Source of the DNA: Rhizobium album
GTDB lineage: Bacteria; Pseudomonadota; Alphaproteobacteria; Rhizobiales; Rhizobiaceae
DNA length: 64,000 bases
NCBI RefSeq assembly: GCF_003122325.1
Contig: NZ_QFBC01000002.1
Span: 496,001-560,000 of the forward strand
Reading direction: 5' to 3'
Below are positions 1,624 to 20,796 of this stretch, one piece after another. Position 1 is the first letter of the stretch; each line of letters opens with the position of its first letter. A program made the translations under genes and the position numbers. The notes beneath the pieces were generated by a model. That model did not search any database. It was not told where the DNA came from and saw only the letters and a program-made list of their open reading frames with translations.

Positions 1624-1727
1624 GTCCTATCCCTCGATCATACCGCGACCAGCCGATGGATGGCGCCGCGCTGACAAAAATTACCGACCTTGCCACCCCT
1701 GGCGGGCAGGGTGTCGACCTATGCCGC

Positions 1728-1800
1728 CTTCCCTTTCTCCCAGCGGGGAGAAGGAGGCAGGGCGCACCCTCTCATTCCATAGGCGAAAACCCTGCTCCTA
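1728..1800. repeat. RIME-like intergenic palindrome, copy 1
   Basis: The core is an inverted repeat of TTCTCCC (1735-1741) and GGGAGAA (1746-1752), followed by a GGCAGGGCGCACCCTCTCATTCC-like tail. The same tail recurs at 15.96 kb. It sits between cobL and cobM. Similar elements occur at eight more places in this window. Confidence 0.7.
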
Positions 1801-1827
1801 CGAAAAAAGCTCCCGTTTCCGCTCCGG

Positions 1828-3066: not shown

Positions 3067-3820
3067 GGGCAGACACCGCATTCTTCTTCTCGGCGGCACC
3101 ACGGAGGCCCGGCAGCTTGCCGAACGCCTGGCCGGCCATCCCGTCTATGAGGCGACGCTGTCGCTTGCCGGCCGCACGGCCGAGCCGCGTGCCCTGCCGC
3201 TGGCGGTGAGAAGTGGCGGTTTTGGCGGCGCCGAAGGGCTGGCGCAGTATCTTCGCGCCCAGCAAATCGACCTGCTGATCGACGCAACCCATCCCTTCGC
3301 CAACAGGATTTCCGCCAATGCCGCGCAAGCGGCCAGGGAAACCGGCGTGCCGGTCTTCGCGCTTCGCCGCCCCGCCTGGGAACGGGTCGAGGGCGACCTG
3401 TGGGAGAGCGTCGAGAGTATCGAAACGGCCGTCGATACCCTGGGCACGGCACCGCGCCGGGTGTTCCTGGCGATCGGCCGGCAGGAGGCTTTCACCTTCA
3501 GCCGCGCGCCGCAGCACGCTTATGTCGTGCGCAGCGTCGATCCCGTGGTGCCTCCGCTCGACGTGCCGCAGGCGGAATACATCCTGGCGACCGGGCCGTT
3601 CCACGAGGCGGACGAGCGCCGGCTGCTCGAAGAGCGGCGCATCGATGTGATCGTCGCCAAGAACAGCGGCGGCAGCGCCACCTACGGCAAGATCGCCGCC
3701 GCGCGCATTCTGGGCAAACCGGTGGTGATGATCGAGCGGCAGGTCGCGCCCGACATCCTGTCGGTCGCCGACGCGGAAGCGGCGCTCGAACGCATCGCTC
3801 ACGTGTTGCCTCCGGCATAG
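3065..3820 (+). CDS. cobK: Precorrin-6A reductase
   Basis: This 251-residue NADPH-dependent reductase turns precorrin-6A into precorrin-6Y. The N-terminus carries the nucleotide-binding LLLGGTTEARQLA segment, followed by DATHPFANRIS near residue 80 and a C-terminal AKNSGGSATYGKI block, all typical of CobK/CbiJ. It is the only cob gene on the plus strand. It starts head-to-head with cobL, sharing bases of the CATG, and its 3' end overlaps the 3' end of cobJ by 22 bases. It therefore has no intergenic sequence of its own, and its promoter must lie inside cobL coding sequence. Confidence 0.93.
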   Translation: MGRHRILLLGGTTEARQLAERLAGHPVYEATLSLAGRTAEPRALPLAVRSGGFGGAEGLAQYLRAQQIDLLIDATHPFANRISANAAQAARETGVPVFALRRPAWERVEGDLWESVESIETAVDTLGTAPRRVFLAIGRQEAFTFSRAPQHAYVVRSVDPVVPPLDVPQAEYILATGPFHEADERRLLEERRIDVIVAKNSGGSATYGKIAAARILGKPVVMIERQVAPDILSVADAEAALERIAHVLPPA

Positions 3821-4563
3821 AAGCGCGGCGTGTAGACGAGGTCGGATTGTCCCTCGCGGGCAACGATTCGCGTTTCCGGCGAGCCGATGATGACGCAGGT
3901 CGCCATGTCGGCGCGGTTTGCATCGGCCTCGGCAAGCGGCATGACCAGGAGGCGCTCGTCCGGCCGGCCGGCGGCGCGGCCGAAGATCACCGGCACCGTG
4001 CCGGGCAGAACCTCGCGCAGCAGAGAAAAGGCTTCGCCGAGTTGCCAGGGCCGCGCCTTGCTGATGGGATTGTAAAGCGCGATCACCATGCCGGCTTCCG
4101 CCATCAGCCGCAGCCGCCTGGTGATGACGTCCCAGGGTTTCAGGTTGTCGGAGAGCGAGATGGCACAGAAATCATGGCCGAGCGGCGCGCCGATGCGGGC
4201 GGCGACCGCCAGCATGGCGGTCACGCCCGGCGTCACCACAAGCTCCACCTGCCGCCATTCAGCCGGACCCTTGTCGATGGCTTCGCAGACGGCAGCCGCC
4301 ATGGCGAAGACGCCGGGATCGCCGCCGGAGACGACACAGACCTTCTCTCCCGCCGCGGCCCGCGTCAGCGCGGCCTGGGCGCGATCCAGTTCCTCGCGGT
4401 TGTCGGAAGCGATGCGCCGCTGGTCGGGGCGCAGCGACAGGCGGTCGAGATAGGGACCGTAGCCGAAAAATTCCGTGGCGGCGGCAACGGCGCTCAAGGC
4501 CTCCGGCGTCATCTGCCCGGCATTGCCGGGGCCGGTGCCGACGACATACAGCACTCCGCTCAT
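3799..4563 (-). CDS. cobJ: Precorrin-3B C(17)-methyltransferase
   Basis: This 254-residue tetrapyrrole methylase performs C17 methylation and ring contraction in the aerobic corrin pathway. Visible motifs are GTGPGNAGQMTPEA at the N-terminus, SGGDPGVFAMAA near residue 80 and VVTPGVTAM in the middle. It starts within the cobI stop (ATGA, four-base overlap), so it is translationally coupled as the last gene of the cobG-H-I-J run. Its 3' end runs 22 bases into the convergent cobK. Confidence 0.95.
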   Translation of the reverse strand: MSGVLYVVGTGPGNAGQMTPEALSAVAAATEFFGYGPYLDRLSLRPDQRRIASDNREELDRAQAALTRAAAGEKVCVVSGGDPGVFAMAAAVCEAIDKGPAEWRQVELVVTPGVTAMLAVAARIGAPLGHDFCAISLSDNLKPWDVITRRLRLMAEAGMVIALYNPISKARPWQLGEAFSLLREVLPGTVPVIFGRAAGRPDERLLVMPLAEADANRADMATCVIIGSPETRIVAREGQSDLVYTPRFYAGGNT

Positions 4564-5297
4564 GGCCGGTCCTTCCAGCCGGCGACCAGCACCAGCGAGA
4601 AATAGGGCGCCTCGTCATCCGCCTTTTCGGCGAGCGGCACCATGGCGGCATTCGCCATCGTGCCGCGCTCGACGTAGACAGCCTGGCCGAGCTTGCCGGC
4701 GGCGGCGAGCGCCCGGCGGATTTTCGGCAGGTTGCGGCCGACCTTCATGATGACCGCAGCCTCGGTATCGCCGAGACGGCGCACCAGTTCGGCCTCCGGC
4801 ATGGTGCCGGGCAGTACGGACAGCACGTCGTCACCCTGGACGATCGGCAGCCCGGCCATCGACCAGCAGCCGGACATCGCCGTGATGCCGGGAATGACTT
4901 CCGCCGCAAAACGCGAGGCGAGCCGCACATGCAGATGCATGTAGGAGCCGTAGAACAGCGGATCGCCTTCGCTGAGGATGGCGACCGTGCGGCCGGCTTC
5001 CAGATGGCTGGCGACGGCTGCCGCCGAGGCATCGTAAAAATCGGTGATCTGGCTTTTATAGCCGTCCTCGTTCTTGTCGATCTCGGTGGTGACCGGATAA
5101 TAGAGCGGCAGTTCCGGCATGCCGGGCTTCAACAGCCCGTCAACCACGGCGCGGCCATTGCCGCGGCGGCCTTCCTTGGCGAAATAGGCGAGCACGTCGG
5201 CGCTTTCCAGTGCACGGATCGCCTTGACCGTCAGGAGATCCGGATCGCCGGGGCCGGTGCCGACGCCGATGAGGCGTCCGTAAGCCACGGCGCTCAA
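4560..5297 (-). CDS. cobI: Precorrin-2 C(20)-methyltransferase
   Basis: This tetrapyrrole methylase of about 245 residues makes precorrin-3A from precorrin-2. It shows the family motifs GVGTGPGDPDLLTVKA near the N-terminus and SEGDPLFYGSY in the middle. No ATG is available at the conserved N-terminus. The choices are a TTG overlapping the cobH stop codon, with GAGG eight bases upstream (used here), or a GTG at 5288 that would give a protein starting just before AYGRLIG. Either is consistent with the tight overlaps seen at the other cob junctions. The upstream extension of the open frame lies inside cobH and is not coding. Confidence 0.92.
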   Translation of the reverse strand: MSAVAYGRLIGVGTGPGDPDLLTVKAIRALESADVLAYFAKEGRRGNGRAVVDGLLKPGMPELPLYYPVTTEIDKNEDGYKSQITDFYDASAAAVASHLEAGRTVAILSEGDPLFYGSYMHLHVRLASRFAAEVIPGITAMSGCWSMAGLPIVQGDDVLSVLPGTMPEAELVRRLGDTEAAVIMKVGRNLPKIRRALAAAGKLGQAVYVERGTMANAAMVPLAEKADDEAPYFSLVLVAGWKDRP

Positions 5298-5926
5298 AGG
5301 CCCGGCCTCGACAGGGCGTTGATCGTCGCCGCCGTCATGGCGCTGCCGCCGAGGCGGCCGCGGACGATGGCATAAGGCACGCCGTAGGAATGTTCCGCCA
5401 GCGCATCCTTCGATTCGGCCGCACCGACGAAGCCGACCGGCATGCCGATGATCGCCGCCGGTTTCGGCGCACCGTCGCGCAGCAGTTCGAGGAGGTAGAA
5501 GAGTGCTGTCGGCGCATTGCCAATGGCGACCACCGAGCCGGCAAGCCGCTCGACCCAAAGTTTTAAAGCAGCCGCAGAACGGGTATTGCCGATTTCCTTG
5601 GCGAGTACGGCCGTCTGCGGATCGCTGAGCGTGCAGATCACCTCGTTGCCGGCCGGCAGGCGGGCGCGGGTGATGCCATGCGCCACCATCTGCGCATCGC
5701 AGAAGATCGGCGCCCCGGCTTTCAGCGCGCCGCGGGCAGCAGACACGAAATCCGGCGAGAAGACGAAATGCTGCGCCGCCTCGACGAGGCCACAGGCATG
5801 GATCATACGAACGGCGATATCCGCTTGTTCATCGGAGAAACGCTTGAGATCGGCTTCGGCGCGGATGATGGCAAAGGAGCGCTCGTAAATGGCGTCACCT
5901 TCGCGGATATAGTCGTAATCTGTCAT
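5294..5926 (-). CDS. cobH: Precorrin-8X methylmutase
   Basis: This 210-residue enzyme moves the C11 methyl group to C12, producing hydrogenobyrinic acid. The catalytic histidine known from the family as His43 is present at residue 43 in RMIHACG. FCDAQMVAHGITR and IIGMPVGFVGAAESK are further signature blocks. The start codon overlaps the cobG stop by four bases (ATGA), and the stop overlaps the start of cobI, indicating a coupled operon. Confidence 0.95.
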   Translation of the reverse strand: MTDYDYIREGDAIYERSFAIIRAEADLKRFSDEQADIAVRMIHACGLVEAAQHFVFSPDFVSAARGALKAGAPIFCDAQMVAHGITRARLPAGNEVICTLSDPQTAVLAKEIGNTRSAAALKLWVERLAGSVVAIGNAPTALFYLLELLRDGAPKPAAIIGMPVGFVGAAESKDALAEHSYGVPYAIVRGRLGGSAMTAATINALSRPGL

Positions 5927-7320
5927 TCCCAGTCCCGTTGCAGCCCTTGCCCGATCGCTCCCGCACCCAGCCGTTCGAGGCTGGCCGCCGCCGTCTCGCC
6001 CGGCCGCCGCCCGGCATCGACCAGCGCGGCAAGCCGCCGGAAGGCGGAAGTGACGTCCTTAGCAGCGATGTAAGCATCTGGCGAGCCCGATGCGGAGCCA
6101 TTTACGACAAGTCCGTAGCCTGTTGGCGCTGCCGTCAGCGTCAGGCCCGCCGCGGCAGGATGGGCGCAGCCTTTCGGACAGCCGGAAAGATGCAGCGTCA
6201 ACGAGCCGTCGAGCAGCGACGGCGCTTCGGCGATGACGGTGCGGGCGAGCGCATGCGTATCGAAAAATGCCGAGGCGCAGCCGCGCGCCCCGGCGCAGAG
6301 GGCGATGGCATTTGCCGGATCCGTTGCCGAGGTGCGCAGGCCATGGGCGGCGGCAAGCGAAAGCGCCTCGCCGATCGTTTCGGGCGCGATGCCGATGAGG
6401 AAAAAGCCGTGTTCCGGCGCCAAGCGGATTTCGCCGGCGCCCAGTTTTTCCATCTCCGCGAGGAAAGCGGTGAGGACCGGAGCTTCGATCTGGCAGAAGG
6501 ACAAGCCGACCCCGAGGATGGGCTGGCCCGGATCGAAGGCATGGATGCCGACGGGAAGCGGTGCGGGCGCCTCAATGTCTTCGTCGCCGGCAGGCGGGAA
6601 GGCAAAGTGGCGGCGCCAGGCCTCACCGTCGAGATTGCGGCCACGGGCGGCGGGGCCGAGGGCATCGAGGGTGCGCAGCAGGGCAATGACCGCGTCGATG
6701 ACCTGCTCCCCAGCCAGAAGCGCCACCGGACGAGCCGTGCGGGCATTGCCCGCAAGCGACAGGCGCCACATTGCAGCCCCATCCGCCCGGCGCTCAGCGG
6801 ACAGGCGGATATCGGCAACGATGCCGCCGAGGTGAAAACGGCCGCCGGCATCGACGGTGATCGAGAGTTTCGGGGCAAGCCGCAGCGGCGGCACATGCAT
6901 TTCGATCGCCTGCCGCAGCGCATCGGCAAGCGGACGGGGATCGAGGATTTCGCCGGGATCAATGCCGGCGAGCGGCGGGGTTTCGATCGCCACCCCGGAG
7001 GACAGCGGCATGTCCATCGACAGGATGGTTTGCGCAAAAGCCGGCGCCGTTTCGGCATCGAGGCCGCGGACCTGCAGGTTGCCGCGGGCGGTGACCTCCA
7101 GCAGGCCGTTGCCGAACGCTTTCGCTGCAGCGGCGATGGCGGCAAACTGACGGGGCGTCAGGCTGCCGTCGAGCGGGCGCAGGCGCACCAGCAGGCCGTC
7201 GCCGGTCGCCATCGGCGCATCGAGCGACGGGCAGGCGCCGCGGCGGGCCGAGGGGACGGGAAGCGGGCTGCAGGCGATCGGCGATATTTTCGGCGCGTTC
7301 ATCATCTCAGGCTGAACCAT
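5923..7320 (-). CDS. cobG: Precorrin-3B synthase
   Basis: This oxygen-dependent monooxygenase (465 residues from the start given) converts precorrin-3A to precorrin-3B, the hallmark step of the aerobic pathway. It resembles nitrite/sulfite reductases, with two ferredoxin-like halves. The cysteines for the 4Fe-4S cluster are visible as LCAGARGC and LSGCPKGC in the second half. The N-terminus is uncertain: ATG codons at 7320, 7305 and 7302 are all possible, and the longer open frame beyond 7320 lies in non-coding sequence with a RIME-like repeat. It heads the cobG-H-I-J run. No cobalamin riboswitch was recognised upstream. Confidence 0.92.
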   Translation of the reverse strand: MVQPEMMNAPKISPIACSPLPVPSARRGACPSLDAPMATGDGLLVRLRPLDGSLTPRQFAAIAAAAKAFGNGLLEVTARGNLQVRGLDAETAPAFAQTILSMDMPLSSGVAIETPPLAGIDPGEILDPRPLADALRQAIEMHVPPLRLAPKLSITVDAGGRFHLGGIVADIRLSAERRADGAAMWRLSLAGNARTARPVALLAGEQVIDAVIALLRTLDALGPAARGRNLDGEAWRRHFAFPPAGDEDIEAPAPLPVGIHAFDPGQPILGVGLSFCQIEAPVLTAFLAEMEKLGAGEIRLAPEHGFFLIGIAPETIGEALSLAAAHGLRTSATDPANAIALCAGARGCASAFFDTHALARTVIAEAPSLLDGSLTLHLSGCPKGCAHPAAAGLTLTAAPTGYGLVVNGSASGSPDAYIAAKDVTSAFRRLAALVDAGRRPGETAAASLERLGAGAIGQGLQRDWE

Positions 7321-7418
7321 AACACGGCGGCGGGCCTTGCGAGAAATCAAAGACGCGACCTGCATGATCTGCTTTGCGCCCTGCGCGGTGGCGGGTGGCA
7401 CCATGCAGCCGCGGAGCA

Positions 7419-7475
7419 AGCCCTCTCATCTGCCCTTCGGGCATCTTCTCCCCGAGGGGAGAAGAGGGGAACCGA
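7419..7475. repeat. RIME-like intergenic palindrome, copy 2
   Basis: CTTCTCCCC (7445-7453) and GGGGAGAAG (7456-7464) form a nine-base inverted repeat. It is preceded by a small hairpin TGCCC-TTC-GGGCA at 7431-7443 and by CCCTCTCATC. It lies between cobF and cobG and separates cobF from the coupled cobGHIJ genes. Confidence 0.75.
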
Positions 7476-7484
7476 TGCTGGGTC

Positions 7485-8255
7485 CTATTCCTCGAAATCC
7501 GTGCCTTTCTGCAGCAGATAGATATCCATGATCCAGCCGTGGCGGGTGCGGGCGTCGGCGCGGGTGGCGAGGATCTTTTCCTTCACCTCCGACAGCCGGC
7601 CGCTGATGACGATCTCGTCCGGCGTGCCGAGATAGGCGCCCCAGTAGATCATCGCATCCGGATCCTCGATACGCTGGAACGCCTGCTCGCCGTCGAGCAT
7701 CACCACGGCGGTTTCGACGATATCGGGAAAACTGTCCGCCAGCCGCCGGCCGGTGGTGATCACCACCGGTTGGCCGACGAGGTTGAGCGGGATGCGGTGG
7801 CTGGCACACAGCGCCTGGACGCTGGTGATGCCGGGAATGACGCTGTAATCGAAGGCGACATTGCCGCGCCGGCCGACCCGCTCCAGGATGCGGATGGTGC
7901 TGTCGTAGAGCATCGGATCGCCCCAGACCAGGAAGGCGCCGGTGCCATGCTCGCCGAGTTCGGTGCGGAACATCGCCTCGTGGATCTCGGCAATTGCCGC
8001 ATGCCACTCGTCGACGCCCTGCATGTAGCTCTGGCCTTCGGTGCGGCGGACGGGCACGGCATAGTCCACCGTGCGGCTTTCGGGATTGGTGACGTAGCGG
8101 GCGACGATGTCGCGGCGGATATCGGCCAGTTCCGCTTTCTTCGCCCCCTTGGTCGGCAGGAACAGGACGTCGGCGCTGTTGAGCGCGTTGATCGCCTGGA
8201 TGGTCATGTGTTCGGGATTGCCGGAACCGATGCCGACGACGAGGATATGTCTCAT
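7485..8255 (-). CDS. cobF: Precorrin-6A synthase (deacetylating)
   Basis: This 256-residue tetrapyrrole methylase methylates C1 and removes the acetyl group extruded during ring contraction. This activity is specific to the aerobic pathway. Motifs include VVGIGSGNPEHMTIQA at the N-terminus, LVWGDPMLYDSTI near residue 110 and SVIPGITSVQALCA. AGGGG lies seven bases before the ATG. It is the first cob gene of the minus-strand series and is separated from cobG by about 165 bases holding a RIME-like palindrome. Confidence 0.95.
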   Translation of the reverse strand: MRHILVVGIGSGNPEHMTIQAINALNSADVLFLPTKGAKKAELADIRRDIVARYVTNPESRTVDYAVPVRRTEGQSYMQGVDEWHAAIAEIHEAMFRTELGEHGTGAFLVWGDPMLYDSTIRILERVGRRGNVAFDYSVIPGITSVQALCASHRIPLNLVGQPVVITTGRRLADSFPDIVETAVVMLDGEQAFQRIEDPDAMIYWGAYLGTPDEIVISGRLSEVKEKILATRADARTRHGWIMDIYLLQKGTDFEE

Positions 8256-10563: not shown

Positions 10564-10974
10564 TCAGCCCTTGACCTCGAACTGCGCATCGACGGGAATT
10601 TGCATCGCCGTGACCAGGTGATTGGTCTGGCCGGCAAGACCGATGATCGATAGGAGTTCGCCGTGCTGGGCATCCGTCATGCCCTTGGCCTTGGCGGCGG
10701 CCGTATGGGAATGAATGCAGTAGGAGCAGCCGTTGGCGACCGAAACGGCGATGTAAACCATCTCCTTCGTCAGCGGATCGATCGTGCTTTCGGCGACCAT
10801 GATCTCCTTCAGCTGGCCCCAGATGCGCTTGAGATGCGCCGGATCATTGGCGAGGCCGCGCCAGAAATTGTTGACGAAATCCGATTTGCGCGTGGCGCGG
10901 ATATCGTCGAAGACGGCCTTCACCTCTGGATGTGCGTCCGCCTCGGCATCGGTCCACAGTTTTACGGTCGCCAT
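10564..10974 (-). CDS. Carboxymuconolactone decarboxylase / AhpD-like protein
   Basis: This 136-residue protein of the CMD/AhpD family has the redox motif CSYCIHSH (C-X2-C-X3-H type) in the middle, characteristic of alkylhydroperoxidase-like members rather than true decarboxylases. It probably acts in peroxide reduction or thiol redox chemistry in the cytoplasm; the physiological substrate is unknown. GAGGAGA about nine bases before the ATG supports the MATVKLW start. It sits just downstream of the sugar ABC ATPase gene on the same strand. Confidence 0.82.
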   Translation of the reverse strand: MATVKLWTDAEADAHPEVKAVFDDIRATRKSDFVNNFWRGLANDPAHLKRIWGQLKEIMVAESTIDPLTKEMVYIAVSVANGCSYCIHSHTAAAKAKGMTDAQHGELLSIIGLAGQTNHLVTAMQIPVDAQFEVKG

Positions 10975-11048: not shown

Positions 11049-12545
11049 TCAATGCACCGCTGCATACATGATCTTCTCCTCGGTGGCCTCGGCGGGGGAA
11101 AACTCTTCAACGATACGGCCCTGGCGGCAGACGAGGATGCGGTCGGAGAGGTTCATGATCTCCGGCAGGTAGGAAGAAATCACCACTACGGCGAGGCCCT
11201 CGTCGGCGAGCCGGTTGATGATCTGGTGGATCTCGGCGATGGCGCCGACATCGACACCGCGGGTCGGTTCGTCGAAGATGACGACGCGCGGGCGCTGCAC
11301 CAAGCCTTTGCCGATCACCACCTTCTGCTGGTTGCCGCCCGAAAGCTCGACGACGCGGGCATTGTCGTTGATGGCGCGGATATTCAGCATCTTCGTCCAT
11401 TCGGCCGACAGCGCCCGCATCTCGGCGGCGTTGATCACCCAGGCCTTTTCATGGCCGGCAGCAAGCAGGCCGCCAAAGATGTTTTCGGCGATCGACATGG
11501 TTTCGAAGAAACCCTCGCTCTTGCGATCCTCGGTGACATAGACGATGCCGTCCTTCACCGCCTCGCGCGGCACGTAGTACCGCACCGGCTTGTCGTCCAG
11601 CTCGATGGTGCCGCCGCGATTGAAGTCGCGCTTGTAGATGCCGGCAACCACCTTGAAGGTTTCGGTACGTCCGGAACCGATCAGGCCGAAGACGCCGGTG
11701 ATCTGGCCTTCGAAGATCGAGAAGGAGTTGTTGCGCACGATGTTGCTCATCGAGATGTCCTGCACCGACAGCACCTTGTGGCCGGGCTTGCGCAGCTTCG
11801 CCTCGTCGCGCTGGCGGTAAAGCTCGGCCGAGAGCGTGCGGCCGACCATGGCGGCGATGATTTTCTCGCGGTCGAATTCCCTGGTTTCACCGGAAGCGAC
11901 CAGCTCGCCATCACGCAGGATGGTGATGCGATCGGAAATCATCAGCGCCTCTTCAAGCGCATGGGATATGAAGACGATCGAGACACCACGCGCCTTGAGA
12001 CGGCGCACCAGCGCGAAGAAGTGGCGCTTTTCCTCTGGCGTCAGCGTCGCGGTCGGCTCGTCGAAGATGATGATCTCGGCATTGTGGTGGACGGCGCGGG
12101 CGATCTCCACCATCTGCTTCTTGGCCGCACCCAGCGTCTCGACCATGGCGGTGGGATCCACCGGGAAATTCAGCGACTGCAGGAATTGCTGTGCCGAGAT
12201 GTAGGTGCCGCGCAGGCGGTTCAGGAATTTTTCGGCACCGAGATAAAGGTTCTGGGCAACCGTCATCGACGGCACCAGGCTGGTTTCCTGGAACACCATG
12301 GCGATGCCGGCTTCCAGCGCTTCGTTGGGCGTCTTGTAGGACACTTCCCGGCCATGGTGGATCATCGTGCCCGATGTCGCCTCGACGACGCCGGCGATGA
12401 CCTTGGTCAGTGTCGACTTACCGGCACCGTTTTCGCCGAGCAGCGCGTGGATCTCGCCCTTGCGCAGGTCGAATGTGACGTTCTTCACCGCCGGCACGCC
12501 GCGATAGGCCTTGGTGACGCCTTCCAGGCGAACGATGGTTTCCAT
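11049..12545 (-). CDS. Sugar-type (CUT2) ABC transporter ATP-binding protein
   Basis: This 498-residue double ATPase of the RbsA/MglA kind energises import by the permeases encoded upstream. The first domain has Walker A GENGAGKST (residues 37-45) and Walker B IIIFDEPTA. The second has the degenerate GLIGSGRTE P-loop normal for the group, and LSGGNQQKV. The ATG used gives METIVRLEGVTKAYRG; the frame upstream of it is not coding. It is the last gene of the import operon, one base after the SMP-30 gene. Substrate class cannot be fixed from the ATPase. Confidence 0.93.
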   Translation of the reverse strand: METIVRLEGVTKAYRGVPAVKNVTFDLRKGEIHALLGENGAGKSTLTKVIAGVVEATSGTMIHHGREVSYKTPNEALEAGIAMVFQETSLVPSMTVAQNLYLGAEKFLNRLRGTYISAQQFLQSLNFPVDPTAMVETLGAAKKQMVEIARAVHHNAEIIIFDEPTATLTPEEKRHFFALVRRLKARGVSIVFISHALEEALMISDRITILRDGELVASGETREFDREKIIAAMVGRTLSAELYRQRDEAKLRKPGHKVLSVQDISMSNIVRNNSFSIFEGQITGVFGLIGSGRTETFKVVAGIYKRDFNRGGTIELDDKPVRYYVPREAVKDGIVYVTEDRKSEGFFETMSIAENIFGGLLAAGHEKAWVINAAEMRALSAEWTKMLNIRAINDNARVVELSGGNQQKVVIGKGLVQRPRVVIFDEPTRGVDVGAIAEIHQIINRLADEGLAVVVISSYLPEIMNLSDRILVCRQGRIVEEFSPAEATEEKIMYAAVH

Positions 12546-12546
12546 C

Positions 12547-13602
12547 TCAGCGGCCCTCCGCAGTGGCGATATCGATGGCAAGCACGCTGTCGCCGCCCTT
12601 CGACGCGACGTAGAGCGTGTCGTCCTTTTCCACGGCGCTGGTGGTGCCGTGGCGGGTGCCGTTGGCGCGGCTGTGCAGGCCGAAGAGCGGCTGCAGGCCG
12701 GCATCGAGCTTGACCACCAGCCCGTAGGAGCGGCTGGGCGACCAGGGTTTGTGGATGCCCATGGTGCGGATGCCGCCGCATTGCAGCGGCTCCAGGAAAC
12801 TGCGGCCGGAAGAGAGCGACGGCGCAATCCAGCTGTCGCGCGGCACTTCCGCCATCATGTCCAGCCGGTAATGGGTTTCCTGCAGCACGAATTCGATGAG
12901 GCGGTTGCGCGGCGCAAACAGCGACAGCCAGACGCCGCCATCTTCCGCCGGCGACAGGCGGGCGGGATAACCGGGCAGCTTGTCGATGACCGTTTTCGGT
13001 GCGCCGCTGCCGCTGATCCTGAGCAGGCGGTGGCGCCAGCTTTCGCTGACGACGAAACCGTCTGCAACCGGATGCAGGCCGTAGGGGAAAGCAAGGCCGG
13101 AGGCGATCTCGCGGAAGTCACCGCCGGCGGCCTCGCGTTTCCAGACGGAGCCGGAGGCGCCCTTTTCCATCAGGTCGGCCGCCCAGGCGGACGGGGCGTG
13201 TTTTGCCGAGCCATTGGCGAGGACGAGTGCGCCGTCAGCGCCATAAGCCAGCGCAGTGATGCAACGGATAGCGGAGGGTAGCGCGACTTCCTTGCCACCG
13301 ACGAAAAGCTTGCCGGTTTCGAGGGCCACGGCGAGTTCGCCGGCGGGGGAGACGGCAAGCGCGGTGACCGGCGACGGGAAGCTTTCGAGAACGGCAGGTT
13401 CCGTGCCTGCCGTCAGCGTATAGACGGCATTGCCGCTGGACGCGATGAGCGTGCCGTTGCGGAACGCGAGGTTGTCGGCCTCCGTCAGCGCCACGAAGGC
13501 ATGAGCATCGTCCAGGCGGGTGTTCGGGCGGAAGGCGCCGTCGAGTGGCGGGATCGTCACCGCCTTGCCGCGGAAATAATCGAGGATCGGGTCGAGGATC
13601 AT
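12547..13602 (-). CDS. SMP-30/gluconolactonase-like beta-propeller protein
   Basis: This 351-residue protein looks like a six-bladed propeller of the SMP-30/strictosidine-synthase-like superfamily, with repeated short beta motifs (ITALAYGADGALVLANG, GLAFPYGLHPVADGFVVSES, YPARLSPAEDGGVWLSL). Members hydrolyse lactones or esters using a metal centre. No signal peptide is seen, so it is probably cytoplasmic. The start overlaps the stop of the permease-SMP-30 fusion by four bases. Having a second propeller immediately after the fused one suggests two related hydrolytic steps or a scaffold pair. Confidence 0.72.
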   Translation of the reverse strand: MILDPILDYFRGKAVTIPPLDGAFRPNTRLDDAHAFVALTEADNLAFRNGTLIASSGNAVYTLTAGTEPAVLESFPSPVTALAVSPAGELAVALETGKLFVGGKEVALPSAIRCITALAYGADGALVLANGSAKHAPSAWAADLMEKGASGSVWKREAAGGDFREIASGLAFPYGLHPVADGFVVSESWRHRLLRISGSGAPKTVIDKLPGYPARLSPAEDGGVWLSLFAPRNRLIEFVLQETHYRLDMMAEVPRDSWIAPSLSSGRSFLEPLQCGGIRTMGIHKPWSPSRSYGLVVKLDAGLQPLFGLHSRANGTRHGTTSAVEKDDTLYVASKGGDSVLAIDIATAEGR

Positions 13603-15722
13603 TGTGCGCCTCCCCAATAGGAGGCGGGTCCGGTCCAGCTTTCGTCAGCGCCGGCGATCTTGTAGCGACCGACGCGGTTGTTGAGGATGCCGCCGATGAA
13701 CAATTGACCCTTGTGCTCGCGCATGGAGGTGACCATCGGGTGGGCGTTGCCGGACAGGTCGCCGAGCGTCTCGACGATTTCGCCCTTGTCGTTGAATTTC
13801 ACCACGCCGCCGGTGTTGATGTTGGGGAACAGCCATTCGTCCTGCGGCAGGCGGCGGGTCATGCGCTTGCGCATGCCGGGGTGGCGCAGCGACAGGTCGA
13901 AGCTCGGCGTGCGCATGCCGAGCCATGCCATCCAGTAATGGCCGCCGGAGGCGCGGTTGATGTTGTCGGGATAGCCCGGCATGTCCTTGATGACGCATTC
14001 GGCCGTGCCGGCCTTCGGGCCTTCCAGCCAGTAACGGTGGACGCGGCATGCCCAGCTTTCGGCGACGAACAGCGACTTGCCGTCATGCGCCATGCACACG
14101 CCGTTGAGATAACGATAGCCGTCGAGCAGCGTCTTCGTCGAGCCGTCCTTGGGATCGTAGACCAGCAGGCGGCCGGTGGCGCGGTTCTCGATCGAATCGA
14201 GCGCCCAGTCGTGCGCGTCGTAACGCTTGGTGCTGTCGGTGAAATAGATGCGGCCGTCGGGGGCGATGTCGCAGTCGTTCGGATCGCGCAACCGGGCATC
14301 GTCGACGACGGAGGTCCAGGAGCGCGCCGTTTCCGCCGAGAGCTTTTTCACCTCGCGGTCGGGCGAGATGGAATAGAGGCCCATGGCACCGACGCAGCTG
14401 ATGAGGTTTTCGTGCCTGTCGAAGGCCAGCCCGAGCGGGAAGCCGCCGACATGGGCGAAGACCTCAGAGCGCGTGTAATCCGGCGCGAAGAAGCGGACGA
14501 TCTCGCCGTGGCGGGTGCCGCAATAGAGGTGGTCGTTGCGATCGAGGATGACGTCCTCCGGGCCTTCCAGCTCACCGAGACCGATGTGATCGGCTTCCGA
14601 CAGGCGATTGTCGAGGGCATAGGCAGTGCCGGAGCCGGGCAGCGCCGATTGCGTCTCGCCCATCTTCAGGTAGACCGGGGCGACGTAGACCTCGTTCAGC
14701 ACCTTGTGGCGGTTCTTCAGCCAGCGGATATCGATGGTGACGGCGACGGCGAGCATGATGCCGAGCACCATCTGGTTGGTGCCGGTGCCATATCCAAGGC
14801 GGATAAGGCCGTTGGTCATCACCAGCACGATGATCGCCCCCATCAGACCCTTGACCACAGAGCCACGGCCGCCGCCCAGCGAATTGCCGCCGACCACGGC
14901 CGCCGTCAACGCCAGGATTTCGAGGTTGAGGCCGGTGCCGGGACCGGCGCCGGAAAGCCTTGTGGCGATGAGGAAGCCGGCAATCGAGGCGCAGAGGCCG
15001 GAGAAGACATAGGTGAGGAAGACGGTGCGTTTGACGCGGATGCCGGCGTTGTGCGCCGAGCGCCTGGAGCCGCCGACGGCCAGCACATGCCATCCGGGCC
15101 GCGAACGGGTAAGCGCGACATGGGTGATGACCGCGATGACAATGGCGGTGATGACGGGGATCGAAAAGCCGAAGACCGTGCCGTCGCCGATGAAATCCCA
15201 GGCATCGGACGAGGCCATCGACGTCTGGATGTCGGCGCCGTAATTGACCACCAGGATATCGAAGATCGCCCGGCCGATGATGAAGGTGACCAGCGTGGTG
15301 AGGAAGGCGCGCAGGCGCAGGAAACCGACGAGATAACCGTTGATCGCGCCGCAGACGATGCCGGTGGCGAGTGCGGCCACAAGCGCCACCCAGACCGGCA
15401 TCTCGAAGATGAAGAAGGTCGAGACGGCCGCGAACGTGGCCAGCGCGAAGATCGATCCGACCGACAGGTCGATGCCGCCGCCGAGCATGACGACGGTCAG
15501 GCCGGTAACGACGACCGAGAACTCACCGAGCTGGCGGGTCGATTCCTGCAGCGAATAGGGCTTGAAGAAGCCGGGGATCGATGCCCCGAAGGAGGCCACC
15601 GTGACCACCAGCACCAGAAAGGGGATGGCGTTGTCCGTCCAGCGCTTGGTGAGGATTTCGCCCACCAGGTGATCGGGAATAAGATTGTAGCGCCAGGCTT
15701 GCAGGCGTTCGCGGAAGGTCAT
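13599..15722 (-). CDS. CUT2 ABC transporter permease fused to SMP-30/gluconolactonase-like domain
   Basis: This is a 707-residue fusion. Residues 1 to about 330 are a complete RbsC-like permease with GGGIDLSVGS, the INGYLVGFLRLRAFLTTL segment and GGNSLGGGRGSV. From about residue 355 to the end it is a beta-propeller hydrolase-like domain with EGPEDVILDRNDHLYCGT, GFPLGLAFDRHENL, RDPNDCDIAPDGRIYFTDST, LNGVCMAHDGKSLFVAES and PGYPDNINRASGGHYWMAW. The reading frame is continuous through the linker, with no stop or shift. RbsC-type permeases have a cytoplasmic C-terminus, so the propeller is predicted to meet substrate as it enters the cell (inference). It is separated from the binding-protein gene by a long RIME-like element. 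Confidence 0.88.
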   Translation of the reverse strand: MTFRERLQAWRYNLIPDHLVGEILTKRWTDNAIPFLVLVVTVASFGASIPGFFKPYSLQESTRQLGEFSVVVTGLTVVMLGGGIDLSVGSIFALATFAAVSTFFIFEMPVWVALVAALATGIVCGAINGYLVGFLRLRAFLTTLVTFIIGRAIFDILVVNYGADIQTSMASSDAWDFIGDGTVFGFSIPVITAIVIAVITHVALTRSRPGWHVLAVGGSRRSAHNAGIRVKRTVFLTYVFSGLCASIAGFLIATRLSGAGPGTGLNLEILALTAAVVGGNSLGGGRGSVVKGLMGAIIVLVMTNGLIRLGYGTGTNQMVLGIMLAVAVTIDIRWLKNRHKVLNEVYVAPVYLKMGETQSALPGSGTAYALDNRLSEADHIGLGELEGPEDVILDRNDHLYCGTRHGEIVRFFAPDYTRSEVFAHVGGFPLGLAFDRHENLISCVGAMGLYSISPDREVKKLSAETARSWTSVVDDARLRDPNDCDIAPDGRIYFTDSTKRYDAHDWALDSIENRATGRLLVYDPKDGSTKTLLDGYRYLNGVCMAHDGKSLFVAESWACRVHRYWLEGPKAGTAECVIKDMPGYPDNINRASGGHYWMAWLGMRTPSFDLSLRHPGMRKRMTRRLPQDEWLFPNINTGGVVKFNDKGEIVETLGDLSGNAHPMVTSMREHKGQLFIGGILNNRVGRYKIAGADESWTGPASYWGGAQ

Positions 15723-15764: not shown

Positions 15765-15985
15765 CGCCCCTTGCCTCGGCCCCTCCCCGTCAAAGGGAGA
15801 GGACATGTCGTATTTTGTCGCCGCTTGCCCTTCTCCCCATCGGGGAGATGGTGGCCCGAAGGGTCGGATGAGGGGGGTCAAGAGGACAGGGTCTGCCGTG
15901 TGGCACCCCTCATCCCGCTGCGTCCTGCGGACCCTTCTCCCCGCGCGGGAGAAGGGGGCAAGGCGCACCCTCATTCCACAAGCAA
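15765..15985. repeat. RIME-like mosaic element, long copy 3
   Basis: A compound of palindromes: CTCCC/GGGAG at about 15784-15801, TCTCCCC/GGGGAGA at 15832-15848, then a GGTGGCCCGAAGGGTCGGATGAGGG block. A variable core, a CCCCTCATCCCGCTGCGTCCTGCGGAC block and a terminal CTTCTCCCCGCGCGGGAGAAG palindrome follow. The reverse complement of the element at 50.72-50.88 kb has the same block order. It fills the gap between the binding-protein gene and the fused permease gene. Confidence 0.85.
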
Positions 15986-16010: not shown

Positions 16011-17036
16011 TTACTTCGCTGCCACGTCCGCCTGCAGGGCCTTCAGATCCCAGCAGCTGTCGGGGCGGAGGTTTTCCTTCGTGGTCGCCTTCAGCAGCGT
16101 GTAGATGAAGGGCGACGACGTGCCGGGGGCCTGGCCGCTCTGCAGCAGGTACTTGATGATCGCCACCATGTTGTGGGTTTCCTGCGCAAGGTCCGTCATG
16201 ACCACGGCGCCATAGGTGCCGTCGGCGATACGGTCGCAATCGGCCGCCTTTTCGCCGCCGCCCGTCGTGACGAGGAAGACCTGGTCCTGCTTGCCGGCAT
16301 CGCGGATCGCAGCCGCTGCACCGGTCGCGTCACCATCCCAGAAGTCGATGATGCCGCAAATGTCGGGGTTCTGCTGCAGCATGGTCGTGGTCACGTTGCG
16401 CGACGTCGTGGCATCCCAGTTGGAATCCGGCTTGGCGACGACCTGGAAATCCGGATATTTCGCCAGCACGTCCATGATGCCGGCATACTGGTAAAGACTG
16501 GTGGCGTTGACCTGGTCGCCCTGCACGAGGCCGATCTTCTTCGACGAATTCGGGCCGCAACCCTTGACCACGGCTTCCGCTTCCAGGCGGCCGAGCTGCG
16601 TCCAGTCGCTGCCGACATAGGCGTCGGGCTTGAAGTTCGCCGGATTGTCGATGAGCACGACATAGATGCCTTCCGCCTGCGCCCGCTTCATCAGCTTGGA
16701 GTAGGAGTTCAGGTCGAACGACATGATGATCAGCACGTCCGGCTTGGTTTCGGACGAGATCACCTCGGTGATCGCCTGGGCGCCGGCCTCGACGCTCCAG
16801 TTCGGATCGCGGGTTTCCAGGATGCCACCGAAGGCATCGACTTCACGCTGCAGGATCGCCGTCCATCCCTGGGCCAGGTCGAAACCCATGGCCATCGGCA
16901 CCAGGACGATGCGCTTGCCCTTCAGCGCCTCGGCGTAGACGGCTGGCGAGGGATCGTCCGCCGCCTGTGGCGCCGTGGCGAAGAAGGAGGCGGAAAGCGC
17001 GGCGGCTGCCGCCAGAAGCGTAGGCAAATATTTCAT
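16011..17036 (-). CDS. Sugar-type ABC transporter substrate-binding protein
   Basis: This 341-residue periplasmic binding protein of the RbsB-like type has a signal peptide (residues 1 to about 25, SASFFATAPQAADD). The mature part carries VLIIMSFDLNSYSKLMKRAQAEGIYVVLIDNP and GIIDFWDGDATGAAAAIRDAG, typical of the two-lobed fold. AGGGG precedes the ATG. It lies between the first permease and the RIME element that separates it from the fused permease. The fold suggests a sugar or sugar-like ligand, but specificity is unknown. Confidence 0.9.
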   Translation of the reverse strand: MKYLPTLLAAAAALSASFFATAPQAADDPSPAVYAEALKGKRIVLVPMAMGFDLAQGWTAILQREVDAFGGILETRDPNWSVEAGAQAITEVISSETKPDVLIIMSFDLNSYSKLMKRAQAEGIYVVLIDNPANFKPDAYVGSDWTQLGRLEAEAVVKGCGPNSSKKIGLVQGDQVNATSLYQYAGIMDVLAKYPDFQVVAKPDSNWDATTSRNVTTTMLQQNPDICGIIDFWDGDATGAAAAIRDAGKQDQVFLVTTGGGEKAADCDRIADGTYGAVVMTDLAQETHNMVAIIKYLLQSGQAPGTSSPFIYTLLKATTKENLRPDSCWDLKALQADVAAK

Positions 17037-17106: not shown

Positions 17107-18087
17107 TCAAATGTCGCCCTGCTGCGCCGTCTGTTCATCGCGCGGATTCAAAAAGCCGTCGATGATGATCGCCGCGAGCAGGATCGACGACTTGATCAGG
17201 CTCTGGTAGATCAATGGAATATCGATGATCGTCATGGCGTTGAGCATGATGCCGATCAGCGCCGCGCCGAACAGCACGTTGCGCACCCCGCCCTTGCCGC
17301 CGGACAGCCCGATGCCGCCGATGACCGCCACCAGCACGATGTCGTAGAGCAGCGTCGAGTTGACGACACGGGTATTGATCGAATGCAGGCTGGCGGCCGT
17401 GAGCAGGCCGGCAATGAAGGCAATCAGCGCCGAAATGACGTAGCGCAGCACCAGCATCGGCCGCACCGGCATGCCGGCATTGCGGGCCGAAACCGGATTG
17501 TCGCCGGCAAAATAGACGTAGCGTCCCCACTTGGTGTAGCGCAGGAACAGAAAGATCAGGAAGGCGAGCGCAGCGAAGATGAACACTTCCACCGGAATGT
17601 CGAAATAACGCACGCCGCCGAAAAGCTGCATCCAGTGGCCTAAAGGCACCGGCACGGCATCCTGGGCGATGAGTTGCGACCGCACGTAGCCGAAGACGAA
17701 GGAGCCGCTCGCCAGCGTCACGAAGATCGCCGGCACTTCGGCGTAGGCGACAAGGAAGCCGTTGAGCAGGCCGATCGCCAGCACGCCGGAGATCACCAGC
17801 AGGAAGGCGGCGCCGTCTGCCATGCCGTCGTTCAGGAGTTGCAGATACCAGGCAACCGACATGGCCATGATGGCGACGGCCGAAAGATCGATGCCACGGC
17901 CGATGACGACGATCGCCATGCCGAGCGCCAGGATGCCGAGCACCGAAACGGAACGGACGATGGCAACAATATTGTCCGGCGTGAAGAAGCCCGGCAGGGT
18001 GAAAGAGGCGACGATAAAAATCAGGATCGCGATCAAAAGCACGATCCGCTCCTGATTCATCTCTTTCCAGTTCAACCAGCTTTTCAT
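17107..18087 (-). CDS. CUT2-type ABC transporter permease
   Basis: This 326-residue membrane protein of the RbsC/BPD_transp_2 family contains IGRGIDLSAVAIMAMS, LLNGFLVAYAEVPAIFVTLASGSFVFG and GGIGLSGGKGGVRNVLFG, with about eight to ten helices. The start chosen is MKSWLNW, with GGGGAA upstream. It is the first gene of the import operon, so this transporter has two different permeases; heterodimeric permeases are known for some CUT2 systems. The regulatory region to its right is shared with the divergent RpiR gene. Confidence 0.92.
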   Translation of the reverse strand: MKSWLNWKEMNQERIVLLIAILIFIVASFTLPGFFTPDNIVAIVRSVSVLGILALGMAIVVIGRGIDLSAVAIMAMSVAWYLQLLNDGMADGAAFLLVISGVLAIGLLNGFLVAYAEVPAIFVTLASGSFVFGYVRSQLIAQDAVPVPLGHWMQLFGGVRYFDIPVEVFIFAALAFLIFLFLRYTKWGRYVYFAGDNPVSARNAGMPVRPMLVLRYVISALIAFIAGLLTAASLHSINTRVVNSTLLYDIVLVAVIGGIGLSGGKGGVRNVLFGAALIGIMLNAMTIIDIPLIYQSLIKSSILLAAIIIDGFLNPRDEQTAQQGDI

Positions 18088-18216
18088 GTCGTTCCCCGGC
18101 ACACCGCCCTGCATGGACGGCGGGCATTCTGCATTTTCTTTCATCGGGAAAGCAAAGACGGTCTTACCCAAAGCCGGCCCGGATGAAGCTTTTCATGCGT
18201 CTTATTGGTTTAACTC

Positions 18217-18461: not shown

Positions 18462-19412
18462 ATGAGCATCCGGGATATGCTGCTGCGCAGCGATCTTTCG
18501 CTTACGCCGTCGGAGGAAAAGATCGTTCAGGCGCTCCTGACCGACTACCCGACGGCAGGGCTCGGGACGGCGACGGCGCTCGCCAAACGTGCCGGCGTCA
18601 GCGACCCGACCGTGGTGCGGCTGGTGATGAAGCTCGGCTTCGAGGGCTATCCCGGTTTCCAGGCAAAACTTCTTGCCGAAGTCGAGGCGCGGCTGCATTC
18701 GCCGCTCCTGATGATGGAGGCGAAGCGGCTGGAAAGCGGCAGCACGGCCGATGGCATCGCCACCTCCTACCTCCACTCGGTGGTCGCCTGCATGGACCGG
18801 ACGATCACCGGCACGCCGGCGATGAGCTACGAGCGTGCCGCCCGGCTGGTGAGCGAGGCGAAGGGCAGCGTCTTCCTGCTCGGCGGCCGCTTCAGCCGCC
18901 ACATCGCCGGCATGCTTTCCGGCTACGTCACCCAGCTGCGCAGCGACGTGCACGATATCGGCGTATTCTCCGCCCAGAGCTTCGACCGGCTCATCGACAT
19001 GGACAAACGCGACGTGCTGGTCGTCTTCGATTATCGCCGCTACCAGCGCGACGTCGTGGCCTTCGCCGAACAGGCGGCGGCCCGCGGCGTCAAGATCCTT
19101 CTTTTCACCGATCCCTGGCTTTCGCCGATCTCGGATTACGCCGAAGTAACACTGTCGAGCGCGATCGACGTCACGTCGCCCTACGACACGCTGGCGCCGG
19201 CGGTCGGTCAGATCGAGGCGCTCGCCGCGCACCTCATCGCCCGCATGGACGACGATACCCGCACCCGCATAGAGGAACTGGAGGCGGTGCGCGAGCGCAA
19301 CGGCGTGACCTTCGACAACACCCGCTCGAATGCCGGGGATACAGCATCCAACGAACCATCCGTCCGGTCGGTGCCCGGACCGAAAAACACCAGGCAGGAG
19401 CCGAAACCATGA
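18462..19412 (+). CDS. MurR/RpiR family transcriptional regulator
   Basis: This 316-residue regulator has an N-terminal HTH_6 domain (residues 1 to about 77, with LTPSEEKIVQALL and GVSDPTVVRLVMKLGFEGYPGFQAKL). A SIS sugar-phosphate-binding domain follows from about residue 110 to 250 (VFLLGGRFSRHIAGML, DVLVVFDYRRYQRDVV). SIS domains sense sugar phosphates or related acids, which fits control of the divergent sugar-type importer. GGAGG lies upstream of the ATG. Its stop overlaps the start of the isochorismatase-like gene (ATGA). Confidence 0.93.
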   Translation: MSIRDMLLRSDLSLTPSEEKIVQALLTDYPTAGLGTATALAKRAGVSDPTVVRLVMKLGFEGYPGFQAKLLAEVEARLHSPLLMMEAKRLESGSTADGIATSYLHSVVACMDRTITGTPAMSYERAARLVSEAKGSVFLLGGRFSRHIAGMLSGYVTQLRSDVHDIGVFSAQSFDRLIDMDKRDVLVVFDYRRYQRDVVAFAEQAAARGVKILLFTDPWLSPISDYAEVTLSSAIDVTSPYDTLAPAVGQIEALAAHLIARMDDDTRTRIEELEAVRERNGVTFDNTRSNAGDTASNEPSVRSVPGPKNTRQEPKP

Positions 19413-20053
19413 CCAAGACCATCACCCGCGACCAGGCTTATGAGGCCGGCGCGACCGCCATCCTGCTCGTCGACCTGCAGAAAATCTGGCTCATTCCCGG
19501 CATCGACCCATCCCATCCGGAGCGTGGTCCCGACCATTATTTCTACAGGCAGACCGCCACCGAGACGATCCCCAACAACGAGCGGCTGCTGGCCGCCGCG
19601 CGGGAAAACGGCGTCGAGGTGCTGCACACCATCATCCAGAGCCTGACCGAGGACGGCCGCGACTGCTCGCTCGACCACAAGCTGACGCCGATCCATATTC
19701 CGCGCAGCGCCCCGGAAGGCCTGCCCGTCGACAGCCTCATGCCGGTCGGCGACGAAATCATGATTCCGAAAACATCTTCTGGCGTCTTCAACTCGACCAA
19801 TATCGACTATCTCCTGAAAAACCTTGGCATCAAGTACCTGATCATCACCGGCATCATGACCGACCAGTGCGTCGACATGGCGGTGCGCGATGCGGCCGAC
19901 CGCGGCTATCTCGTCACCTGCGTCACGGACGCCTGCGCCACCGCGACGCCGGAGCGCCACGACGGCGCCCTCGAGGCATTCGGCGGCTATTGCTGGCTGG
20001 CCGACACCGATACCGTGATCGAACGCCTCAAGGCGCTCGGGAAACCCGCATGA
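19409..20053 (+). CDS. Isochorismatase-like cysteine hydrolase
   Basis: This 214-residue hydrolase of the isochorismatase superfamily shows the expected catalytic Asp-Lys-Cys set: Asp in LLVDLQKIW, Lys in MIPKTSSGVFN and Cys in GIMTDQCVDMAV. The superfamily includes nicotinamidases, N-carbamoyl amidases and ureide-type amidohydrolases, and the substrate here cannot be fixed. It overlaps both neighbours by four bases, so it is translationally coupled to the RpiR regulator and to the N-formylglutamate amidohydrolase. This argues for consecutive amide-cleaving steps. Confidence 0.88.
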   Translation: MTKTITRDQAYEAGATAILLVDLQKIWLIPGIDPSHPERGPDHYFYRQTATETIPNNERLLAAARENGVEVLHTIIQSLTEDGRDCSLDHKLTPIHIPRSAPEGLPVDSLMPVGDEIMIPKTSSGVFNSTNIDYLLKNLGIKYLIITGIMTDQCVDMAVRDAADRGYLVTCVTDACATATPERHDGALEAFGGYCWLADTDTVIERLKALGKPA

Positions 20054-20796
20054 CGGCGGCAGCGACCCCGGACTGGCCGGCCCCGGTCGAGGTGCTGAAC
20101 GCGGCGGGCACGAACGACATCGTGCTTACCTGCGAACATGCCTCGAACCACATTCCGGCCGAATATGCCGGTCTCGGCCTGGCCCCGCACGAACTCACCC
20201 GCCACATCGCCTGGGACATCGGCGTTGCCGCCGTCACCCGCGAGCTGGCGCGGCGTCTCGATGCGCCGGCCTTCCTCGGCACCTATTCGCGGCTTTTGAT
20301 CGACCTCAACCGGCCGGTGGACAGCCCGACCAGCATTCCGGCGCGCTCCGAAGCGACGGACATCCCCGGCAATATCGGCATCGACGACACCGAGAAGAAC
20401 CGTCGCATCGAGCGGATGTTCACCCCGTTCCACGAGCGGATCGAGACCCTGCTCGATGCGCGTGAAAAACAGGGCAGGAAAAGCCGCATCGTCGGCATCC
20501 ATTCGTTCACGCCGGTGTTTCATGGCGTGCAGCGCCCCTGGCATGTCGGCATCCTCTACGGCCAGTCGAAGGATTATGCCGAGGCGTTGATGACGGAGTT
20601 GCGGCGCGACCCGACGCTGGTGGTGGACGGTAACGTGCCCTACATCATCGACCGGCTGGAGGATTACGCCATTCCCGTCCACGGCGAAGACCGCGGCTAT
20701 CCGGCAGTGCTGGTGGAAGTGCGCCAGGACCTCCTGCTGACGGACGACGGAGTGCAGGAGTGGACGGATCGTCTATACGCGGCATTGACGGCCTGA
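20050..20796 (+). CDS. N-formylglutamate amidohydrolase family protein
   Basis: This 248-residue protein of the FGase family shows TCEHASNHIP, DIGVAAVTRELARRL, YSRLLIDLNRP, GIHSFTPVF and the C-terminal VLVEVRQDLL. The family removes formyl or related acyl groups from amino acids, as HutG does in histidine breakdown, but no other hut genes are here. Its ATG overlaps the stop of the isochorismatase-like gene. The most economical idea is that it finishes breakdown of whatever the adjacent ABC system imports. Confidence 0.87.
   Translation: MTAAATPDWPAPVEVLNAAGTNDIVLTCEHASNHIPAEYAGLGLAPHELTRHIAWDIGVAAVTRELARRLDAPAFLGTYSRLLIDLNRPVDSPTSIPARSEATDIPGNIGIDDTEKNRRIERMFTPFHERIETLLDAREKQGRKSRIVGIHSFTPVFHGVQRPWHVGILYGQSKDYAEALMTELRRDPTLVVDGNVPYIIDRLEDYAIPVHGEDRGYPAVLVEVRQDLLLTDDGVQEWTDRLYAALTA

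Follow-up and report, generated by a model that had tools for sequence, protein, structure and literature searches.

A sugar-type ABC importer permease fused in frame to a hydrolase-like beta-propeller in Rhizobium album

In a 64,000-nucleotide stretch of Rhizobium album DNA (NCBI RefSeq assembly GCF_003122325.1, contig NZ_QFBC01000002.1, positions 496,001 to 560,000; the window), one gene joins an RbsC-type permease of an ATP-binding cassette (ABC) importer to a beta-propeller of the strictosidine-synthase-like (SSL) type. Searches of other genomes, which the original prediction had proposed, recovered the same two-domain fusion many times and within a fixed five-gene cassette. On balance, with confidence only modestly above even, we read the system as an ABC importer with an ester or lactone hydrolase tethered on its cytoplasmic side and built into one permease. 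The importer would be of the ribose/sugar class and consist of a single binding protein, two RbsC-type permeases that differ from each other and may pair as a heterodimer, and one double ATPase. Beyond its last helix in the membrane, permease 2 would continue as a six-bladed propeller of the SSL/TGW6 type on the cytoplasmic side. There, at the inner mouth of the channel, the propeller most likely hydrolyzes the solute as it comes in, at an ester or lactone bond.

A permease and a propeller in one frame

The fusion gene (13599..15722, stop codon included; positions are those of the window, on the minus strand unless stated) reads as a single open frame of 707 codons from 15722 to 13599, and its extent agrees with Pfam matches and full-length homologues. 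The permease domain (residues 1–345; 14688..15722) matches PF02653 (BPD_transp_2) at residues 68–327 with an E value of 1.3e-34 and 120.1 bits, against a Pfam cut-off of 26.8, while the NCBIfam equivalog for RbsC proper (NF007067) is missed, at 151.8 bits against a cut-off of 398. The propeller domain (residues 346–707; 13602..14687) matches PF20067 (SSL_N) at residues 368–411 (E 3.1e-12, 46.6 bits, cut-off 18.9), PF08450 (SGL) at 414–602 (E 9.4e-15, 55.3 bits, cut-off 26.3) and PF03088 (Str_synth) at 482–568 (E 6.8e-21, 74.6 bits, cut-off 25). An uninterrupted frame with a complete RbsC-like permease followed by a propeller, as originally predicted, is thus borne out. The label SMP-30/gluconolactonase-like given to the propeller survives in so far as PF08450 exceeds its cut-off; but the higher Str_synth score, together with the fold, places the domain nearer to strictosidine-synthase-like proteins.

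In a structural model of the fusion, residues 27 to 335 hold ten membrane helices, which a linker joins to the beta-propeller. With the N-terminus taken as inside, Lys and Arg number 15 in 105 inside loop residues and one in 45 outside; this positive-inside trend, which helps to define the permease domain, holds across a 34-row alignment, although the inside loop 81–87 has none. Because of these counts the propeller should be cytoplasmic, the side to which it had first been assigned, and the topology of RbsC leads to the same predicted placement. No solved structure related to the permease was retrieved by sequence search at E 0.01. Fold searches of the fusion were filled by propeller matches and so covered the propeller part.

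A sequencing error at the junction, which could have hidden a stop between two genes, is excluded, because four other fusions exist in the same genome, 15 plasmid records hold the fusion and 68 of 80 homologous loci encode exactly 707 residues, taking the start nearest to that of the window fusion. The R. album genome encodes five full-length fusions (100, 56, 56, 51 and 45% identity to the query), the four others being free of inner stops, and each plasmid record carries at least 80% of the fusion query in one place. Together with the many independent assemblies and the complete plasmids among the matches, these copies leave virtually no chance that the fusion is a junction error, a chance frame, or an artefact of annotation or assembly. 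These 80 loci, the ones most similar to the fusion among 434 confirmed, are not independent, because many come from Mesorhizobium and one (L086) repeats another (L014). Most are alphaproteobacterial, with gamma- and betaproteobacteria also represented; named loci among these best 80 include Yersinia proxima, an Enterobacterales, a Thiotrichales metagenome-assembled genome (MAG), an Arenicellales MAG and a Paraburkholderia. The fusion is also found on a Pantoea plasmid and a Paraburkholderia plasmid.

The cassette in the window runs in the order permease 1, binding protein, fusion, free propeller (prop2) and ATPase. Permease 1 (17107..18144) is unfused and of RbsC type (PF02653, E 7.6e-25), its start lying at either 18144 or 18171. 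The periplasmic sugar-type substrate-binding protein (16011..17036) matches PF13407 (E 1e-40). Prop2 (12547..13602; 351 residues) starts inside the stop codon of the fusion (ATGA), which confirms the overlap noted at the outset. The two-domain RbsA-type ATPase (11049..12545, scanned with a longer start) has two PF00005 stretches, and its best NCBIfam matches are ATPases of sugar importers, with scores below their cut-offs. When eight further fetched loci are added to the best 80, all five genes are present in 82 of 88 loci; the other six (L034, L063, L065, L069, L078 and L082) end at contig edges. Permease 1 has the opposite orientation in one of the R. album copies (L012). A Brucella pituitosa record (L080) has two fragments in place of a single frame for the binding protein, and likewise for prop2.

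Genome samples, each of which counts the R. album genome, outline how widely the fusion is spread. It occurs in 11 of 398 genomes of the phylum sample (E ≤1e-100), all within its own class. Twelve of 385 class-sample genomes match (E ≤1e-70), ten of them with the fusion; the exceptions are two with a free propeller only (G663 and G781) and one partial match (G984). In the order sample 36 of 297 genomes match (E ≤1e-60), 35 with the fusion and one (G590) with an unfused permease relative only. Copy numbers per genome are lower bounds, because only two or three candidates were scored in each. The free-standing propellers of G781 (L151) and G663 (L152) are 38% identical to the fused domain, and no fusion was found in either genome.

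The distribution bears on a simpler explanation, that the fusion fixes only the stoichiometry and location of an independent tethered hydrolase, with no coupling to the transport cycle. The G590 locus (L135, contig 7) would fit it: permease 1, binding protein, an unfused permease 2 and ATPase stand there in cassette order, and the 14 kb retrieved contain no propeller, which shows that such a transporter can exist without one. The linker at residues 336–372 could also be loose. But homologues that are always split, which would have counted against the original prediction, are not what was found; among the order-sample matches, with at most three candidates scored per genome, no version with permease 2 and propeller as separate genes was found, and the two partial fusion matches (G552 and G530) end at contig edges, without prop2. 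A length of exactly 707 residues in most loci is also more rigid than a free tether needs. We regard the independent tether as an unlikely explanation. In a tree of permease domains the permease 2 of G590 groups with the fused permeases (100/99) and the base of the group is unresolved; it may be ancestral, or the locus may have lost both propellers.

Active-site positions of the two propellers

At all five positions where propeller hydrolases such as PON1 and DFPase have metal ligands (Glu, Asn/Asp, Asn and Asp-Asn), the fused domain, by alignment, retains the expected residues (E389, N482, N540, D586 and N587). Among 54 diverse fusions E389, N540, D586 and N587 are invariant, and position 482 is Asp in 30 and Asn in 24. 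The redundant set agrees, the five positions being kept in 88 of 88 fusions apart from a single gap, at N587, where a contig ends. In fold comparisons, also run with Foldseek, the nearest solved relative is TGW6 (PDB code 8kg3; Z 36.2, root-mean-square deviation (rmsd) 2.3, 278 residues aligned, 30% identity). Strictosidine synthase (PDB code 2fp8 and others) gives Z 32.8–35.4, and DFPase, RPA3624 lactonase, Drp35, XC5397 and PON1 give Z 27.7–30.6 at about 16–18% identity.

The TGW6 report (PMC10958001) describes a rice hydrolase of indole-3-acetic acid (IAA)-glucose with Glu59, Asn167, Asn226 and Asn272 at its site, crystallized without Ca2+ and with a single acidic residue there. In our alignments these four residues pair with E389, N482, N540 and N587, respectively; the numbering offset of 28 was counted by hand and fits all four pairs. 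Because the fusions linked to 3-hydroxy-3-methylglutaryl-coenzyme A (HMG-CoA) reductase genes, treated below, carry Asp at position 482, a further acidic residue, metal use may differ between clades of the fused domain. Strictosidine synthase shares the fold and PF03088 with the fused domain but has Gly at the positions of N540 and D586. Its activity is unlikely in the fusions: these two ligand positions differ, and the catalytic residue, Glu309, is probably absent, Thr665 standing invariant at that position in 54 of 54 fusions as mapped on a weak ungapped stretch (4.2 and 8.5 bits).

The original prediction had noted a free second propeller beside the fusion, correctly, but had missed both its degeneracy and the five-fold recurrence of the cassette in the genome. 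Prop2 adopts the same fold (8kg3: Z 30.4, rmsd 2.7, 265 residues aligned, 17% identity), and a profile alignment to the fused propeller (hhalign, 294 columns, E 1.4e-31) places D43, I115, Y174, A214 and R215 at the five ligand positions. In a diverse set of 38 prop2 rows none of the five is kept in 35 and one in three; in the redundant set of 87, which includes the fragments L063 and L080, none is kept in 76 rows, a single one is kept in 10 rows, and L063 is partial. The association with the fusion is constant. A prop2 profile search of the 297 order genomes (E ≤1e-30, at most six candidates scored per genome) returned 48 places in 35 genomes, and each of the 48 follows a fusion on its own strand, at a distance of 3–104 bp between match ends; for two of these places the paired fusion was taken from the search of the R. 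album genome, as the order-sample search had scored at most three per genome. Judged from its residues, prop2 would be a pseudoenzyme-like obligate partner of the fusion, a homologue whose active-site ligand positions have been lost, and as an active propeller hydrolase it would lack the metal-ligand positions required. Its role toward the fused propeller is most likely structural or regulatory, perhaps on the permease-1 side. A constant pair of one active and one inactive propeller would mirror the paired halves of the transporter.

Such a pair also suits a regulatory explanation, in which the fused propeller is a sensor: on binding solute that has reached the cytoplasm it would slow or gate the transporter (trans-inhibition), with prop2 forming the other half of the sensor. 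A non-catalytic partner that is always present fits it, a conserved pocket would serve binding as well as catalysis, and TGW6 showed no metal. Against it, the ligand set is intact in every one of the 54 fusions while prop2 has lost it, and degradative genes adjoin some cassettes. Because the fused domain keeps the set that its sister propeller has lost, selection on chemistry is suggested, and we consider the sensor a doubtful alternative. The tethered hydrolase, our preferred reading, also has a stronger form, in which permease 2 hands the solute to the built-in site, prop2 is a dead twin, and hydrolysis traps the product within the transport cycle, as in the conversion of mevalonolactone to mevalonate. 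This vectorial form we offer tentatively, as a possibility well short of even odds. As an interpretation the original prediction is partly supported, direct coupling of import to hydrolysis being its conjectural element.

Gene context and candidate solutes

Seven cassettes follow genes for a degradative HMG-CoA reductase (L009, L091, L136, L139, L159, L189 and L190); the reductase of L189 is a fragment at a contig end, and that of L159 (Shinella sp. HZN7) is so annotated in its record. In six of them the ATPase gene has an HMG-CoA lyase gene as its neighbour, which shares its strand in L009, L091, L139, L189 and L190 and lies on the opposite one in L136; none was seen beside cassette L159. The R. 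album genome holds one of the seven (L009, contig 25). Upstream of it are genes for an enoyl-CoA hydratase, a family III CoA-transferase and HMG-CoA reductase, the last scoring 436 bits against TIGR00532 (cut-off 260); the HMG-CoA lyase gene lies downstream. Four reductases (L009, L139, L159 and L190) and two lyases (L009 and L190) were scanned with family models, and the others owe their names to likeness. In the tree of 54 fusions the seven fall into a clade of three and a clade of four, both supported at 100/100, and the latter sits in a larger clade (99/99) with seven unlinked fusions. One contig (L190; G959 contig 25) carries two cassettes side by side, one with reductase and lyase and the other from a different clade.

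Mevalonate, the substrate of degradative HMG-CoA reductase, has a lactone form. The reductase-linked cassettes probably import mevalonate or mevalonolactone, and the clusters of reductase and lyase thereby supply one concrete candidate solute. In the order sample, four genomes have a reductase as well as a fusion, and in each of them the two are adjacent; a rough estimate, for five fusions, one strand and 10 kb in about 6.9 Mb, puts the chance of such adjacency at about 0.4% per genome. A search of 46 fusion-bearing genomes found seven with the reductase, which stands beside a cassette in G000, G055, G472, G594 and G959. At the loci examined in 12 of the 33 reductase genomes without a fusion (L177–L188), no relative of permease 1, the binding protein or the propellers was found with the window proteins as queries; weak ATPase-like frames occur in five, and L187 has a weak permease-2-like frame (32 bits).

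Several observations weigh against the tethered-hydrolase reading as a whole. The hydrolase activity of the fused domain is putative, and TGW6, its closest solved relative with the same Glu and Asn positions, had no Ca2+ in the crystal. The orientation of permease and propeller is poorly fixed in the models: the best of five has a mean predicted local distance difference test score (pLDDT) of 85.2 and a predicted template-modelling score (pTM) of 0.66, and the other four have mean pLDDT values of 68.5–76.9. A propeller-free relative of the cassette exists in G590. The reductase is found away from the fusion in G833 (by about 256 kb) and in G905 (by about 15 kb), and a genome-level association of the two is absent, with the reductase in 37 and the fusion in 35 of the 297 order genomes and four shared against 4.4 expected. 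Neighbouring genes, too, vary widely among cassettes. The count of shared genomes rules out a general genome-level linkage with mevalonate degradation. Because adjacency holds in the seven cassettes while the genome-level association is absent, the reductase link is specific to some cassettes of the family.

Other cassettes adjoin genes for a CoA-transferase and a lyase, for alcohol and aldehyde dehydrogenases, or for a member of the carboxymuconolactone-decarboxylase (CMD) family. Because the neighbours differ so widely, no single substrate fits, and several solutes appear to be served across the fusion family. A CMD-like gene is present in 68 of the 88 loci, and in the window it adjoins the cassette (10564..10974; PF02627). 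The window fusion belongs to a clade of 24 rows (100/100), of which 21, its own included, are CMD-labelled; L077, L083 and L087 showed no CMD gene. Neighbours in this clade belong to the CMD, class IV aminotransferase and quinone-oxidoreductase-like families and, divergently, to the isochorismatase, glutamine-synthetase and N-formylglutamate-amidohydrolase (FGase) families, and they name no substrate for the window cassette; the glutamine-synthetase and class IV aminotransferase genes among them are those of its relatives. On a plasmid of Pantoea sp. At-9b (L013), the neighbours are of the dihydroxyacetone-kinase and triose-phosphate-isomerase families, with rpiB, transketolase and a lumazine-synthase-like gene, a set that perhaps points to a sugar-acid or tetritol pathway.

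Known systems and the window neighbourhood

The cassette resembles the RbsC-type carbohydrate importers (RbsABC, AraFGH and AlsABC) in its PF02653 permease, its binding protein and its two-domain ATPase encoded side by side; it differs from them in having two different permeases, one with a propeller of 360 residues, and in missing the NCBIfam equivalog cut-offs. SMP-30/gluconolactonase (XC5397), DFPase, Drp35, PON1 and RPA3624 lactonase share the fold and metal-ligand positions of the fused domain but are free enzymes of low identity to it. TGW6 shares the six-bladed SSL propeller with the same Glu, Asn, Asn and Asn positions, and is reported to cleave a sugar conjugate; unlike the fusion, it is a free plant protein outside any transporter. 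The records encountered that carry annotation name the fusion by one domain only, as SMP-30/gluconolactonase/LRE family protein, ABC transporter permease or rbsC_2, and because such names hide the architecture, many copies could be renamed. The bond that TGW6 cleaves is an ester. In Escherichia coli, UgpQ is a cytoplasmic hydrolase reported to act on the solute during import by the Ugp glycerophosphodiester importer, but it is a separate protein, of a different fold, and serves a different transporter class. With an enzyme fused to the channel of an ABC importer, chemistry coupled to transport could be tested directly within a single complex. In a search of titles and the beginnings of abstracts, with subscription journals mostly outside its scope, we found no published description of the fusion architecture or of a lactonase-linked mevalonate importer, and the portion of PMC13064465 available has no mention of lactonase.

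Upstream of the cassette, on the plus strand, lie genes for a divergent RpiR/SIS-type regulator (18462..19412; PF01418 and PF01380), for an isochorismatase-family protein (19409–20053; a similar gene in 8 of 88 loci) and for an FGase-family protein (20050–20796; a similar gene in 7 of 88 loci). The gap of 288 bases between the binding-protein and fusion genes contains a palindrome-rich intergenic element (15817–15982). The gap has 50 matches in the R. album genome, itself included, most of them to gap bases 95–260, and the element resembles the intergenic mosaic repeats of rhizobia. At 862–8255 the window carries a run of genes that resembles cobalamin (cob) biosynthesis, as judged from the starts of their translations only.

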